Source of the DNA: Candidatus Competibacter sp.
GTDB taxonomy: Bacteria; Pseudomonadota; Gammaproteobacteria; Competibacterales; Competibacteraceae
Direction: 5' to 3'
DNA length: 52,275 nucleotides
NCBI GenBank assembly: GCA_029624815.1
Contig: JARSSH010000058.1
Coordinates: 1 to 52,275, forward strand
The notes beneath the pieces are model-generated. The model worked only from the letters and a program-made list of their open reading frames with translations. It was not told the origin of the DNA and did not search any database. The translations under genes were made by a program, and so were the position numbers. Each line of letters begins with the position of its first letter. The stretch's first letter is position 1. Positions 4,838 through 9,528 of this stretch are shown here, piece after piece.

Positions 4838-5269
4838 TCACTCCTCGCTTCGTAACGGTCCGCCGGGCCGGCGACCCTGCTTTTTCTCCCCGACGCGCCG
4901 CTTTTCCTCCAAGCGCCGCTGTTTGGCGGCCCGCGAAGGCCTGGTTTTGACGCGCGGCCTCGGCGCCGTCGCCGCTTGCTGGATCAACCCGACCAAGCGC
5001 TCGATGGCATCCTGCCGATTGCGTTCTTGACTGCGAAAGCGCCGGGCGGTGATCAGCAGTTGGCCGTCCTGGGTCACGCGGCTTCCAGCCAGCGCCCGCA
5101 ACCGCGCCCGCACCGCGTCCGGCAGCGAAGGCGAACGCGCGACATCGAAGCGCAGTTCCGCCGCCGTCGCTACCTTGTTGACGTTCTGACCGCCGGGGCC
5201 GGACGCCAGTTTGAATTGAAACTGGAGTTCGTCCTCGGGAATGTGAATATCGGGCGTGGCGATGATCAT
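4838..5269 (-). CDS. arfB: ArfB-type peptidyl-tRNA hydrolase (ribosome rescue)
   Basis: This is a 143-residue release-factor-like protein with the GGQ catalytic motif (SGPGGQNVNK, about residues 22-31). A conserved core follows, then a strongly basic C-terminal tail rich in K and R that in this family enters the empty mRNA channel. ArfB (YaeJ) hydrolyses peptidyl-tRNA on stalled ribosomes that lack a stop codon. The start MIIATPDIHIP at 5269 matches the family N-terminus; an upstream in-frame ATG at 5278 is possible. It lies 43 bases after the KAS III-like gene in the same direction and may ride on that operon. Confidence 0.9.
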   Translation of the reverse strand: MIIATPDIHIPEDELQFQFKLASGPGGQNVNKVATAAELRFDVARSPSLPDAVRARLRALAGSRVTQDGQLLITARRFRSQERNRQDAIERLVGLIQQAATAPRPRVKTRPSRAAKQRRLEEKRRVGEKKQGRRPGGPLRSEE

Positions 5270-5312
5270 GGCGCACATTCGCAACCGGCGGGACGCGATT
5301 TCTTGGCCCGGT

Positions 5313-6323
5313 TCACCGCCATCGCCACAACGAGGCCGCCAGGGCGATGCCGCCGCCGCTGGCGCAAAACAGCACCAGCGAGCCGGGCGCGGGGCCCTTG
5401 CCCTGGGCAATGGCGTCGTCCAGCACCATCGGAATGCAGGCCGAACCCGTGTAGCCCCATTTATCCATGATCCAGTGCGTTTTTTCCAGCGGCTGGCCGA
5501 GCGCCGCCATGGTGGCTTCGAGGGTGCGCAGGTTGACTTGGGTGAAGTAATAGCGGTCCACGTCGTCCGGCCCCATCCGCGTGCCGGTCGCGGCGCTGGC
5601 CTTGGCCAGCGCCCGCTCGATCAGCGGCGGCCATTGCTCGGTGTTGAAAGTGGCTGGAAACTTGCGCACGAACCGCACGGTTGGCGGCCCGTAGCGCTCC
5701 AGGTTGGCGAGGTTGGCCGGGCGGAAAACACCGCCGGTATAAATGCCGAGCGCATCGTGGTACTCGCCGGCGGCGGCCAGGGCGGTGGCCAGCCAACCCG
5801 GTTGCGAGCCAGCGCCGACCACCACCGCCCCCGCGCCGTCGGCGAACAGGGTCACGGTTTTCTTGTCGCCCCAATCCAGAAACCGGCTCATGCCATAGGC
5901 CCCGATCACCAGCACGAAGCGCTCGTCGGGTTCGGTGGCCAGCGTCTTCGCCGCGATGTCCAGAGCGATGACCCAACCGGCGCAGGCGCTGTTCACGTCG
6001 AACACTCCGGCGCGACGCGCGCCCAGCTTGGCCTGCACCACCGCCGCCGTGGCTGGGCTGAGATAATCCGGCGTGTCGGTGGCGACGATGATCCGGTCGA
6101 GATCGGCCGCGTCCAGGCCGGCGCGCTCCAGCGCTGTTTTCGCGGCCGCGACCGCCAGATCCGAAGTCGTCTGATCATCGGCCATGAAATGACGCTCGCG
6201 GATGCCGACATTCTCCACCAACCAGTCGCCGACCGACTCGCCCAGTAATTCGTCGAATTCGGCGTTGGTCATCAGTCGTTCCGGGACGTAGCCGCCGGAA
6301 CTCAGGATTTGGGCATGGCGCAT
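5313..6323 (-). CDS. KAS III (FabH)-like protein with altered active site
   Basis: This 336-residue thiolase-fold protein aligns with FabH from end to end (GIRERHFM near the N-terminus, DGAGAVVVGAG in the middle, SGGGIALAASLW at the end). The nucleophilic cysteine is present in NSACAGW (about residue 112). By alignment to E. coli FabH the catalytic histidine of PHQAN is threonine (FTQVN, about 262), and the asparagine of GNTSA is tyrosine (GYTGSA, about 291). Decarboxylative condensation normally needs those two residues. An acyltransferase or other Cys-only chemistry is therefore more likely than fatty-acid initiation. The start at ATG 6323 is chosen because GGAGG sits five bases upstream; a GTG at 6335 is the alternative. 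The methyltransferase gene ends 54 bases upstream on the same strand. Confidence 0.85.
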   Translation of the reverse strand: MRHAQILSSGGYVPERLMTNAEFDELLGESVGDWLVENVGIRERHFMADDQTTSDLAVAAAKTALERAGLDAADLDRIIVATDTPDYLSPATAAVVQAKLGARRAGVFDVNSACAGWVIALDIAAKTLATEPDERFVLVIGAYGMSRFLDWGDKKTVTLFADGAGAVVVGAGSQPGWLATALAAAGEYHDALGIYTGGVFRPANLANLERYGPPTVRFVRKFPATFNTEQWPPLIERALAKASAATGTRMGPDDVDRYYFTQVNLRTLEATMAALGQPLEKTHWIMDKWGYTGSACIPMVLDDAIAQGKGPAPGSLVLFCASGGGIALAASLWRWR

Positions 6324-6377
6324 CGCAACCTCCACAAGGCAATACCGGCGGCTCCGCCGACGACGGTCATCGTGACA

Positions 6378-7244
6378 CTACTCCAGACTGGCGAATAAAT
6401 CCCAGTGGCCGACCGACAGGCGTGAATGGCCGCGCTCGATCAGGCTGCATCGATGCCGCGACCAAGCGTCCAGCCAGCTTGTCGTTTCGGGCGCGATCCG
6501 CCGCACGGCCTCCGTCCAACCGTCCAGCAGCGCCGTTTGCAGGGCGGCGTCTTGCGCGGCCAAGCGCCAGGGACTGGGCCGCAACTCCACCCGATAATCC
6601 AGCCGTTCGAGCAGGGTCGCCAGCGTGGGAGCGGCGTCGGGACCGAGCGCCGGACCGAAGCCCTTGTCCGTGCCCTGGTGGCGGTTGATCCATTCGCGCA
6701 TCCACTCGTCGCCCTCCGCCGCCGGCTCCCAGACGATGGACCCATCGTAGCTGAGCACGATCAGCACCGCCGCCCGCCATTGCCGACAGCGGCGGGCCAG
6801 TCGTTCCAGCCAGTCGGCCGATACCAGATCGATCAGGGCGGAGGCCGTGACCAGTTGCGCGTTCGCAACCGCCAGCCGCTCCCAGTCCGCGTTCAAGTCC
6901 AGACAGGACCATTCCAACCGGCACTGCCGCGTTTCGTCCTCCAGGAGCAGGGTTCCACTCTCGTCCGTTACCTTCATGCCCCGCACGACCGCCCACCGGC
7001 GGAGCGCCTCATCGGCCCGCGCCAGCAACGCCGGGTCGTGATCCACCAGCCGCCAATGCTGCTTCCCGCCGAGAGCAGGGGCGAGAATACGGACGTTGGC
7101 CCCGGCGCCGCTGCCGAGATCCAGCACGGACAATGCATCGTATCGCCGCCGCCAGACGATCAGCCGAGCGGTCAGTTCCGGGTTGCGGGCCGCCGCATCG
7201 GCCGGTTCGCGCAGGCGCAGCCATTCGGCGGAAAAGCCGCTCAT
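6378..7244 (-). CDS. Class I SAM-dependent methyltransferase
   Basis: This 288-residue protein has the SAM-binding motif I LDLGSGAGANVRIL (about residues 40-53), an acidic motif near LVDHDPALL, and the conserved segment LVTASALIDLVSADWL. The C-terminal half is tryptophan-rich and variable. Its ATG overlaps the stop of the glycosyltransferase gene (ATGA), so translation is coupled. The methyl acceptor cannot be read from sequence. Context suggests it acts on the same product as the adjacent glycosyltransferase and PTPS-like protein. Confidence 0.85.
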   Translation of the reverse strand: MSGFSAEWLRLREPADAAARNPELTARLIVWRRRYDALSVLDLGSGAGANVRILAPALGGKQHWRLVDHDPALLARADEALRRWAVVRGMKVTDESGTLLLEDETRQCRLEWSCLDLNADWERLAVANAQLVTASALIDLVSADWLERLARRCRQWRAAVLIVLSYDGSIVWEPAAEGDEWMREWINRHQGTDKGFGPALGPDAAPTLATLLERLDYRVELRPSPWRLAAQDAALQTALLDGWTEAVRRIAPETTSWLDAWSRHRCSLIERGHSRLSVGHWDLFASLE

Positions 7245-8293
7245 GCCGGAATCTCGTCCAGCGCCGCGGCGAAGCGGGCGCAGATCTCCGGCCAGTCCGG
7301 CAGGGACTGGCGAGCCGCGCGGGCGCCGGTGGCTAGACGTTCGCGCAATGCGGGTTCGGCCATCACCCGCGCCAAGGCCTCGGCCAGCGCCGTCTCGTCG
7401 CCGGGCGGAACCAGCAACCCCGCGTCCGCCGACACCGTGTCGGGAATCGCGCCCGCCGTGGTGCTGACGATCGGCAATCCCCGCGCCAGCGCCTCGGCCA
7501 GCGCCATGCCGTAACCCTCGTGATGGGACGGCAGCACGAACACATCGGCCCGCCGGTAGCGAATTGCCAGGGCCGCCTCGTCCAGTTCGCCCAAAAACGC
7601 GATGCGCCCGGTCAAGCCCAGATCCTCCGTTAAGTCGAGGAGAAGAGCGGCGGTGGGTGGATGCAGCCGTTCGCTGCCGGCGCAAAACAGCCGCCAAGGA
7701 TGGTGTTGGAGTCGCGCCAGGGCGCGGAACAGTACGGCATGACCCTTGCGCGGGGTCAGCGAGGCCACACATAGCAGATCCAGGTTTCCGCCGCCCGAGC
7801 CTTCCGCCAGCGGCGCGGGATCGGTGCCGGGCGGAATCGCGACGCAGCGCTCCGGCGTCACTTCGTATTCGCTCAGCAGTGCCCGCGCCGTACTGGGACT
7901 GGTGACGATCACCCGGCGGACATGGCGCAATGCCTCGCGCTCGCTGGCATGGAGTTGCCGACGTAACGTTTCGTCCAGCCCGGTTTCCAGCGCCAGCGGA
8001 TGATGGAGCAGCGCCACCAGCCGCAACCGGTCACGCTGGGCGGCGGCGACCGTCGGCATGGCGCCTAGCGCCAGGCCGTCGATGACCGTCAATGCCCGAT
8101 CCGGCAACGCGGCCAGTACCTCATCGGCCTCGCGCAGCGCCGCTGGAGTCGGCCGCGGAAAGCCGGCATCGAGCCGCCGGAGTTCGACCCGCCAGTCCAG
8201 CGCCGCCAGTCCGGCCATGATCCGCCGGTCGTACAGATAGCCGCCAGTGCGGGTATCGGGATCACCGGGAATCAGGAACCGGACCGATTTCAA
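7241..8293 (-). CDS. Family 4 glycosyltransferase
   Basis: This is a 350-residue GT-B fold enzyme. The N-terminal acceptor domain has a [13 protein letters not shown] loop, and the C-terminal nucleotide-sugar domain begins near [13 protein letters not shown]. The GT4 E-x7-E signature appears in [13 protein letters not shown] (about residues 251-263). These are retaining, soluble or peripheral transferases. No membrane segment is seen. Both ends overlap neighbours by four bases (PTPS-like upstream, methyltransferase downstream), which makes a strictly co-translated trio. Donor sugar and acceptor are unknown. Confidence 0.9.
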
Positions 8294-8691
8294 GGCAGTG
8301 TCCCTTCGTAGGACGCCCAGGCGACGTGGGATTCGTGCAGGGTGACGCGCATCGAACTCAGGCCGACGGCATTCGGCCCCAGTCGCCCTTCCTCGATCCG
8401 CAGCGCGACGCGATCGAAGATCTCGCGGGCCAGAAATTCGGTGGTGGTGTTGCGGCCGGCGAATTCCGGCAGTTGGTCAAGGTCGCGAAAATTGAGGTCG
8501 CCGAGCACGGCGCGCAGGCAGTCGCCGAGCTTGCCGATGTCCGTGACCACGCCGTCCGGGTCCAGTTCGGGACGGCGCAGTTCCAGATCGACGATGTAGG
8601 TTGCGCCGTGCGGGCGTTGGGCGGGACCGAAGGTTTCCCCTCGGAAGCTATGGGCGATCATGAAGTGGTCACGAACGCAGACGGTGTACAT
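8290..8691 (-). CDS. PTPS/QueD-fold protein lacking the catalytic triad
   Basis: This 133-residue protein belongs to the 6-pyruvoyl/6-carboxy-tetrahydropterin synthase family. Against E. coli QueD the first zinc histidine is kept (H14 in MIAHSF) and so is the first histidine of HGH (H28). The second is alanine (PHGATY, A30). The catalytic cysteine is alanine (A24), and the catalytic Asp-His pair of LDHHYL is N67-F68. The pterin-anchoring glutamate is retained (E120 in LHESHVAW). The [12 protein letters not shown] helix of the family is clear. It probably binds a pterin or purine-like ligand but cannot use the standard QueD/PTPS mechanism. It is the first gene of the ATGA-coupled trio. Confidence 0.85.
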
Positions 8692-8820
8692 GGTTTAGCC
8701 TTGGGTTGGGTGGTTGGGAGAAAGAACCGCCGGTTAACGCCCTGGTTTCGATTCCGGCGGGCGCGAGTTTACCGATAAATAGCGCGCTGGCCGCTGGTGG
8801 ACGCCATTCCATGGCCTCGT

Positions 8821-9528
8821 TTATTGGCGCGGTTCCAAATTGGGCTGGATCTTCGTCACATACACCGTCCCATCGCGCATTTCCCAATGCAGATCGAAGT
8901 CGTACAGCCGCATACCGTAACTCCGGGAGGCAGCGTCGGCGCCACGATAGGCCGGGCGCGGATCCTGGCGCAGGATCTGGACGATCAGGCCGCGCAGATG
9001 GTCCGCCGGCCAAGTCGCGCAGAACGCCGCCGCCGCTGGGCTGAACTCAACCGGCAGGTGTGGCGGCGCTTCGCTCGCGAAGCCACCGGTCGCCTCGGGG
9101 AGACAGTCGGCGTAGGGCAAATAGGGTTTGATGTCCAGCACCGGCGTTCCATCCAGCAGATCCACCCCCGAAAGGTGCAGCGTCACCCGCTGGCCGACGA
9201 CAGCCACCCGTTCCAGCCGAACCGCCGACAGCCCGATGGGGTTGGGACGAAAGGTCGAGCGGGTGGCGAACACCCCCAGCCGCCGGTTGCCACCCAGGCG
9301 CGGTGGCCGCACCGTCGGCTGCCAGCGACCGGCCGGCGTGCCATGGAACACGAACACCAGCCATATGTGGGAGAAGGTCTCCAGTCCGCGCACCGTCGCC
9401 GCTTGACCGTAGGGCGGCGACAACTCCAGCGTCGCCCGCGCCGACGGCGCCAGCCCCGGTTGGCGCGGGATGCCGAATTTCTCGCGGAAACAGGAGCGGA
9501 CGAAGCCGATCGGCGTGAACTGGAACAT
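8821..9528 (-). CDS. trmO: tRNA(Thr) t6A37 N6-methyltransferase TrmO
   Basis: This 235-residue protein has the TrmO (YaeB/TsaA) beta-barrel signature. It opens with FTPIGFVRSCFREKFGIPRQ, continues with the conserved ATRSTFRPNPIGLS (about residues 88-101) that binds SAM, and then DVLDIKPYLPY-like DIKPYLPYAD. It methylates N6-threonylcarbamoyladenosine at position 37 of threonine tRNAs. The length fits the family. Its start directly abuts the stop of corA, so both are likely on one transcript. A 129-base gap separates it from the PTPS-like gene downstream. Confidence 0.95.
   Translation of the reverse strand: MFQFTPIGFVRSCFREKFGIPRQPGLAPSARATLELSPPYGQAATVRGLETFSHIWLVFVFHGTPAGRWQPTVRPPRLGGNRRLGVFATRSTFRPNPIGLSAVRLERVAVVGQRVTLHLSGVDLLDGTPVLDIKPYLPYADCLPEATGGFASEAPPHLPVEFSPAAAAFCATWPADHLRGLIVQILRQDPRPAYRGADAASRSYGMRLYDFDLHWEMRDGTVYVTKIQPNLEPRQ

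Follow-up and report, generated by a model that had tools for sequence, protein, structure and literature searches.

RESULTS

The stretch of DNA analyzed here (the window) comprises 52,275 nucleotides of contig JARSSH010000058.1 from Candidatus Competibacter sp. (assembly GCA_029624815.1). Between positions 5313 and 8691 of its minus strand it carries genes for a PTPS-like protein, a GT4 glycosyltransferase, a class I S-adenosylmethionine-dependent methyltransferase (MT) and a KAS III-like protein. We put at roughly 0.6 the probability that the first three genes (hereafter, the trio) are the conserved middle of the widespread, uncharacterized PTPS-IV/SCO6650 pathway, with the full course proposed below. 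The pathway probably turns an early vitamin B2 building block into a sugar-bearing, methylated compound; on the best reading, the trio would glycosylate and methylate a core, ribityl-pyrimidine or pterin-like, that is drawn off from riboflavin synthesis.

Assignment of the PTPS-like Protein to PTPS-IV

Enzymes of the QueD/PTPS-I group use a catalytic Cys-Asp-His triad and three zinc-binding His residues. The PTPS-like gene (positions 8290-8691, minus strand) encodes a T-fold family protein of 133 amino acids that matches PF01242 at 81.5 bits and carries an FGPAQ...HGA motif. Alignment to 2g64 placed Ala24, Asn67 and Phe68 at the Cys, Asp and His positions that we take to be the catalytic triad, and Ala30, the last residue of HGA at 28-30, at the second His of HGH, presumably a zinc ligand. 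With A24, HGA, N67 and F68, and a score of 39.3 bits against the QueD model TIGR03367 (cut-off 89.25), the protein falls outside QueD/PTPS-I, a group marked by the motif CxxxHGH (PMC5041015). The residue losses that the first-pass annotation of this DNA had reported for the PTPS-like and KAS III-like proteins are therefore real, the latter by the FabH comparison described below.

The closest solved chain to the window protein was 3d7j, SCO6650 of Streptomyces coelicolor (E 1.6e-48; 60% identity). SCO6650, which presumably sits in a gene cluster with the GTP cyclohydrolase II SCO6655, is said in its abstract to be a hexameric T-fold protein that has neither zinc nor a catalytic triad and keeps a pterin-like pocket. 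Residues 21-25 of the window protein are FGPAQ, given as the PTPS-IV signature in the passages of PMC5445326 that deal with this subfamily; in 12 aligned sequences, F21, G22, A24 and Q25 were invariant and P23 was kept in at least 90%.

Across 101 PTPS-IV sequences, A24, A30, N81, E85, E120 and S121 were invariant, position 67 was Asn in 96, and position 68 was Phe, Tyr or Leu in all, with the proviso that invariance at residues 11-18 and 28-35 arises partly by selection (the search patterns held MIAHSF[RQ]G and HGATY[VI]VD) and that this set, like a related set of 100 loci, holds repeats (judged by length, the contigs of L043, L044, L045, L046 and L047 are those of L025, L033, L036, L032 and L038, respectively). 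With such a conserved residue set, the gene is not a decayed one; judged by sequence, the product must be a conserved protein that needs some other chemistry, and PTPS-IV is an orphan subfamily in which the catalytic triad of PTPS is missing. The window's genome also holds a second gene of the PTPS family, and in that one the HGH motif is intact. The earlier annotation had overlooked both the membership of the PTPS-like gene in an already described subfamily and the presence of the remaining set elsewhere in the genome, on other contigs.

Organization of the Window Genes

The positions and common strand first given for the four genes were confirmed, and Pfam agrees for the PTPS, GT4 and KAS III families. 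The GT4 gene (positions 7241-8293, minus strand) has a TTG start and encodes 350 amino acids. Its product is assigned to GT4 by a PF00534 score of 112.1 bits (cut-off 26.4) and by EGYGMALAE, an instance of EX7E, which we take to be the motif of the class. It represents a dedicated subfamily, with 44-75% identity within a 14-row alignment, and its nearest solved chains were general ones.

The MT gene (positions 6378-7244, minus strand) encodes 288 amino acids, again of a dedicated subfamily, and its product is 37-69% identical to 37 relatives from conserved loci. The Pfam match was under the cut-off (24.2 against 27 bits); the class I assignment comes from motif I (VLDLGSGAGAN) and from an AlphaFold model with a predicted local distance difference test (pLDDT) score of 96.3, the predicted Rossmann-like fold of which was matched by Foldseek to class I methyltransferases. 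When a clue to the substrate was sought among the Foldseek matches, many class I enzymes were listed at template modeling (TM) scores of about 0.4-0.6, and they pointed to no specific substrate.

The trio genes do overlap by 4 bases each, but the sequence ATGA, first noted for both overlaps, is found only between GT4 and MT; that between PTPS and GT4 is TTGA. Four-base ends of this TGA type (ATGA, GTGA or TTGA) occurred at 73 of 100 PTPS gene ends, and a short overlap alone is weak evidence because a TGA stop would give about three in four by chance. The 54-base gap between the MT and KAS III-like genes (6324-6377) was also confirmed.

Conservation of the Trio across Bacteria

Neighborhoods were compared in 80 named loci, the best of at least 586 relatives found by pattern scan, among which Halomonas and Variovorax are over-represented. 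Counts are restricted to loci where contig ends allow; neighbor families were assigned by tblastn (60 bits, within about 10 kb), and some CDP-alcohol, FkbM, sulfatase-like and GTP cyclohydrolase hits are possibly unrelated paralogs. The loci span Proteobacteria, Acidobacteria, Gemmatimonadota and Actinomycetota. GT4 follows PTPS-IV in 76 of 77 and the MT is present in 71 of 73, an alcohol-dehydrogenase-like gene stands just upstream of PTPS-IV in 77 of 79, and a RibD_C-like reductase gene lies within 4.5 kb in 61 of 68. Among the 51 loci with full flanks, recurrent families were CDP-alcohol phosphotransferase (41 loci), GTP cyclohydrolase II and FkbM methyltransferase (23 each), creatininase and an EptA/LtaS-like protein (22 each), a flippase-like protein (19) and YceI (15).

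The neighborhood of the trio is more than chance because its order is kept in distant bacteria. The co-occurrence of all four families in order, the check that the first-pass annotation had set for its cassette, is borne out for the first three genes and, for the KAS III-like gene, was not seen outside this genus.

The locus is also found on plasmids. PTPS-IV was present in 20 plasmid records, and five of the six that were viewed have the dehydrogenase beside it. A plasmid of S. fungicidicus brings together CDP-alcohol phosphotransferase, dehydrogenase, PTPS, GT4, MT, creatininase and ribA genes, and that of Microbacterium sp. SGAir0570 (L268, 59 kb, typed mobilizable) carries CDP-alcohol phosphotransferase, dehydrogenase, PTPS-IV, GT4, MT, flippase-like and RibD genes. 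Given that the set occurs on this small plasmid of mobilizable type, transfer of the pathway from cell to cell is possible. The locus, with a PTPS-IV 64% identical to that of the window, was also seen on a contig labeled Natrialbaceae archaeon (L107), which is probably a mis-binned bacterial contig.

Dispersal of the Set in the Window's Genome

Within the phylum (Pseudomonadota, by the genus match to Candidatus Competibacter phosphatis, L043), 398 genomes were scanned for PTPS-IV, and 398 for the dehydrogenase; each gene was found in 27 genomes, the same ones for both, from 12 families. The scans admitted PTPS-IV at E values up to 1e-25 and the dehydrogenase up to 1e-40 and scored no more than 10 and 5 candidates, respectively, in any one genome; the two draws of 398 were taken as the same genomes because their listed members agree, 351 in each draw being unlisted. 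The paired genes are 9-124 bases apart in 26 of the 27, and only in the window's genome do they lie on different contigs. Contig 3 of that genome holds the EptA/LtaS-like, CDP-alcohol phosphotransferase and dehydrogenase genes, and contig 68 the FkbM and RibD_C-like genes; the core set is kept, split over three contigs.

Among 40 relatives, 15 have PTPS-IV. The dehydrogenase was found in 14 of these and in none of the other 25 (the dehydrogenase count leaves out a weak match in G047, of 143 bits and 33% identity, though it lies above the limit), and the PTPS-IV genome that lacks it is 82% complete. The RibD_C-like gene was found in all 15 and in one of the 25 others. In a series of 20 loci from relatives (L023-L042), PTPS-IV has no adjacent dehydrogenase in eight (L023-L026, L028, L031, L035 and L038). 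In those eight, GT4 stays with PTPS-IV throughout and the MT in seven; in L031 the contig ends at that point, and an MT end is found at the border of a different contig from the same genome (L197).

Partner Enzymes and Proposed Pathway

The RibD_C-like protein of the window's genome consists of the reductase by itself, the deaminase half being missing, and a weaker RibD-type match is present elsewhere in that genome. Its nearest solved chain was 6p8c, a ribosylaminopyrimidine reductase. The absence of the deaminase half, together with retention of the SLDG and DPQLTTR motifs, suggests that the enzyme reduces the ribosylaminopyrimidine phosphate ahead of deamination, which would leave the 2-amino group in place, as it is in pterins. 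The CDP-alcohol phosphotransferase has a complete motif, kept in at least 90% of 53 sequences, the conserved residues of which we take to be the family motif. For the sulfatase-like membrane protein, a model of the Thiorhodococcus copy (L076; pLDDT 87.3) has a predicted fold resembling EptA, MCR-1 and LtaS, with TM scores of up to about 0.5 against full-length Foldseek matches.

For the chemistry, including that of PTPS-IV, and for the product, we infer the following course. GTP cyclohydrolase II would open GTP to 2,5-diamino-6-ribosylamino-pyrimidinone 5'-phosphate, through a dedicated copy in some genomes and through RibBA here. The second, deaminase-free RibD_C reductase would then give the ribityl compound and keep the 2-amino group that riboflavin synthesis removes. 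The dehydrogenase and PTPS-IV would rework or ring-close the core, with the aminopyrimidine seated in the T-fold pocket of PTPS-IV, which lacks the classical triad. GT4 would then attach a sugar, and two methyltransferases, the window's MT and FkbM, would add methyl groups. The CDP-alcohol phosphotransferase motif and the EptA/LtaS-like fold are hints that a phospho-alcohol is linked on at the membrane, which these two enzymes would probably do. In the window's genus, the genes of the set are scattered over three loci, with the KAS III-like gene behind the trio. The idea of a pterin-like core that receives a sugar and methyl groups, already present in the first-pass annotation, has gained from the RibD_C reductase, from the frequent presence of GTP cyclohydrolase II and creatininase, and from the conserved trio; the acylation step appended to it has not, the KAS III-like gene being adjacent only in this genus.

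A more far-reaching version is speculative, and we consider it unlikely as a whole. In it, the product would be a widespread and hitherto unseen membrane-anchored cofactor or pigment, a glycosylated and methylated ribityl-aminopyrimidine or pterin joined by the CDP-alcohol phosphotransferase to a phospholipid-type head group. It would face the periplasm (EptA/LtaS-like and flippase-like proteins) and be served by YceI in some species, and PTPS-IV would be a T-fold enzyme whose triad-free chemistry is new.

Several observations weigh against the proposed pathway. The RibD_C-like protein is under the NCBIfam cut-offs, and the dehydrogenase is under its Pfam cut-off with a weak match to BchC. No RibD_C-like gene was found nearby in 7 of the 68 named loci, and none of RibD type is listed within 12 kb in S. 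fungicidicus, the gene table of which is incomplete. GT4 is absent from the plasmid locus of Rhodobacteraceae SC52, where the dehydrogenase stands beside PTPS-IV, and a plasmid of S. anthocyanicus has PTPS-IV without the set. Conversely, the relative G016 has RibD_C-like and FkbM genes (L194, L251), and the KAS gene too, and neither PTPS-IV nor the dehydrogenase was found in it; its set is possibly a degraded or alternative pathway. The window's genome has no dedicated GTP cyclohydrolase II, its one PF00925 match being RibBA-like, and its creatininase sits in an unrelated context. That creatininase, a contig 10 copy 36% identical to the Halomonas cluster protein, was dropped as a member of the set; by eye, its neighbors' gene starts look like those of electron-transfer flavoproteins and oxidoreductases.

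A switch residue of GTP cyclohydrolase II has reportedly been described by Spoonamore in 2006. At the position scored here, which we take to be the residue that switches the product between formylated and deformylated pyrimidine, Tyr was present in 29 of 29 loci with a match, although in two of these (L075 and L102) the match is weak and distant and could be to an ordinary RibA; this too counts against the pathway. Met was seen in S. fungicidicus (L263:16479-17138). A rule by which Met at this switch goes with creatininase accordingly failed and was set aside.

The KAS III-like Gene

Enzymes of the KAS III/FabH type have a Cys-His-Asn triad. The KAS III-like gene (positions 5313-6323, minus strand) encodes 336 amino acids with PF08545 and PF08541 matches, in which Cys114 is kept and the FabH His and Asn are replaced by Thr261 and Tyr291. 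The product falls outside the FabH type on this triad and on its scores (NF006829, 242.2 against 249 bits; TIGR00747, 211.1 against 292.1 bits). Cys114, Thr261 and Tyr291 are common to all 14 orthologs that cover them (L229-L238 and L259-L262; 44-94% identity), a fifteenth, L239, being truncated ahead of these positions; in place of Thr261 and Tyr291, His and Asn are present in all eight FabH-like comparison proteins (L240-L247). This Cys-Thr-Tyr subfamily, with its FTQ and MDK.GYTGS motifs, is conserved down to 44% identity.

The gene adjoins the trio in four genomes of the window's genus (G000-G003). An ortholog was near the trio in 1 of 69 named loci (L043), which is of the same genus and, judged by length, identical with the G003 contig. 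In eight genomes from six other genera of the family, the ortholog is on a different contig from PTPS-IV or PTPS-IV is absent. Its neighbors vary there, with a PapA-like acyltransferase gene or fragment beside it in G016, G019 and G012; a link between KAS and this acyltransferase was considered and rejected, since it is seen in some relatives and is absent from the window's genome. The KAS III-like gene is a local, genus-level neighbor that looks like a local newcomer, and its membership of the pathway is doubtful.

DISCUSSION

The proposal that all four window genes form one pathway, with the KAS III-like protein acylating the glycoside, was that of the first-pass annotation. Adjacency in the four genomes of the genus speaks for it, as does the ortholog count in the 40 relatives (11 of 15 PTPS-IV genomes against 1 of 25 others); these relatives are, however, few and related, so that the co-occurrence may be descent. 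In the other genera examined, the gene does not adjoin the trio, no ortholog was found in the PTPS-IV genomes G022, G024 and G037 or in G004 (82% complete), and G016 has one without PTPS-IV, with the PapA-like neighbor that G019 and G012 share. With the FabH His and Asn gone as well, we regard a four-gene pathway as improbable. That the window genes are chance or positional neighbors, an ordinary polysaccharide GT/MT pair beside a QueD paralog, is scarcely credible: both GT4 and class I MTs are very common families, but the order is conserved across phyla, the agreement with the dehydrogenase is 27 of 27, and the PTPS-IV protein is far under the QueD cut-off.

The remaining alternatives concern the substrate. 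The trio might act on a pterin of the folate/tetrahydrobiopterin route, made by GTP cyclohydrolase I, with the RibD_C-like protein as a dihydropterin reductase and a pterin glycoside as product, as in cyanobacteria and green sulfur bacteria. The RibD_C fold also occurs in enzymes that reduce dihydrofolate, for example Rv2671 (4xrb), which is among the RibD_C-like matches; the trio includes a PTPS family protein with invariant Glu residues, and pterin glycosides are real bacterial products (from parts of PMC13259868 and PMC5683033). Nevertheless, it is GTP cyclohydrolase II that recurs as the additional enzyme (in 23 of the 51 loci with full flanks; no search was aimed at GTP cyclohydrolase I), and the best solved match of the reductase is a ribosylaminopyrimidine reductase, which leaves this route a minority possibility. 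Formation or modification of the deazaflavin cofactor F420 is much less probable again. No FO synthase or CofC/D/E-type gene is among the recurrent neighbors named, with a few families unnamed and no genome search made for FO synthase, and to our knowledge Halomonas, Variovorax and Competibacter are not known as F420 producers. In favor of F420, section 7 of PMC5041015 says as much of PTPS-IV, from unpublished data, and a GTP cyclohydrolase, a creatininase-type formamide hydrolase and a reductase resemble the early archaeal steps in the relevant part of PMC9478397.

The pathway proposed here, from a riboflavin precursor through the trio, has partial counterparts in known systems. It differs from the SCO6650 system in that the window's genome spreads its genes over three contigs, has no dedicated GTP cyclohydrolase II and places the KAS III-like gene behind the trio. 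With the AGeNNT PTPS-IV cluster (cluster-node 62), as presented in the relevant part of PMC5445326, it shares FGPAQ. The PF00925 and PF01872 neighbors named there are typical of the relatives' loci; in the window's genome the RibD_C-like gene is on another contig and the one PF00925 gene is RibBA-like. The same part of that paper describes PF00925 as GTP cyclohydrolase I/FolE2. To what is given there, the present analysis adds the dehydrogenase, GT4, MT, FkbM, CDP-alcohol phosphotransferase and EptA/LtaS-like genes and the co-occurrence of unlinked genes. The archaeal GCHIII-ArfB and bacterial BrbF riboflavin routes, in the account excerpted from PMC9478397, likewise combine a GTP cyclohydrolase, a creatininase-related formamidase and a later ribosylaminopyrimidine reduction, but in the present set the reductase comes without a deaminase half, and PTPS-IV, GT4 and methyltransferases accompany it. 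With the cyanobacterial and Chlorobium pterin glycoside pathways, as far as the sources cited above cover them, the shared idea is a sugar on a pterin-like core; in contrast to these, no biopterin-type PTPS or sepiapterin reductase is among the recurrent neighbors named.

No study of a PTPS-IV pathway was found in the Creative Commons-licensed PubMed Central literature under SCO6650, SCO6655, PTPS-IV/FGPAQ and the partner names. PTPS-IV and part of its neighborhood are in print, and function only as the one line on unpublished F420 data (PMC5041015); new here are the fuller gene set, its dispersed form and the agreement between PTPS-IV and the dehydrogenase across genomes. The partner set, kept though scattered in the window's genome, defines a pathway present in 27 of the 398 genomes sampled from the phylum, and it names the candidate genes for deletion and the substrate for feeding. 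Where a GT4 gene lies beside it, a gene annotated as 6-carboxytetrahydropterin synthase need not be a queuosine gene.

The cassette is flanked by genes with ordinary family matches, TrmO and CorA upstream and a release-factor-like ArfB (ribosome rescue) gene downstream. The G+C content of positions 5000-9000 is 65-70%, against 58-64% elsewhere in the first 13 kb of the window.

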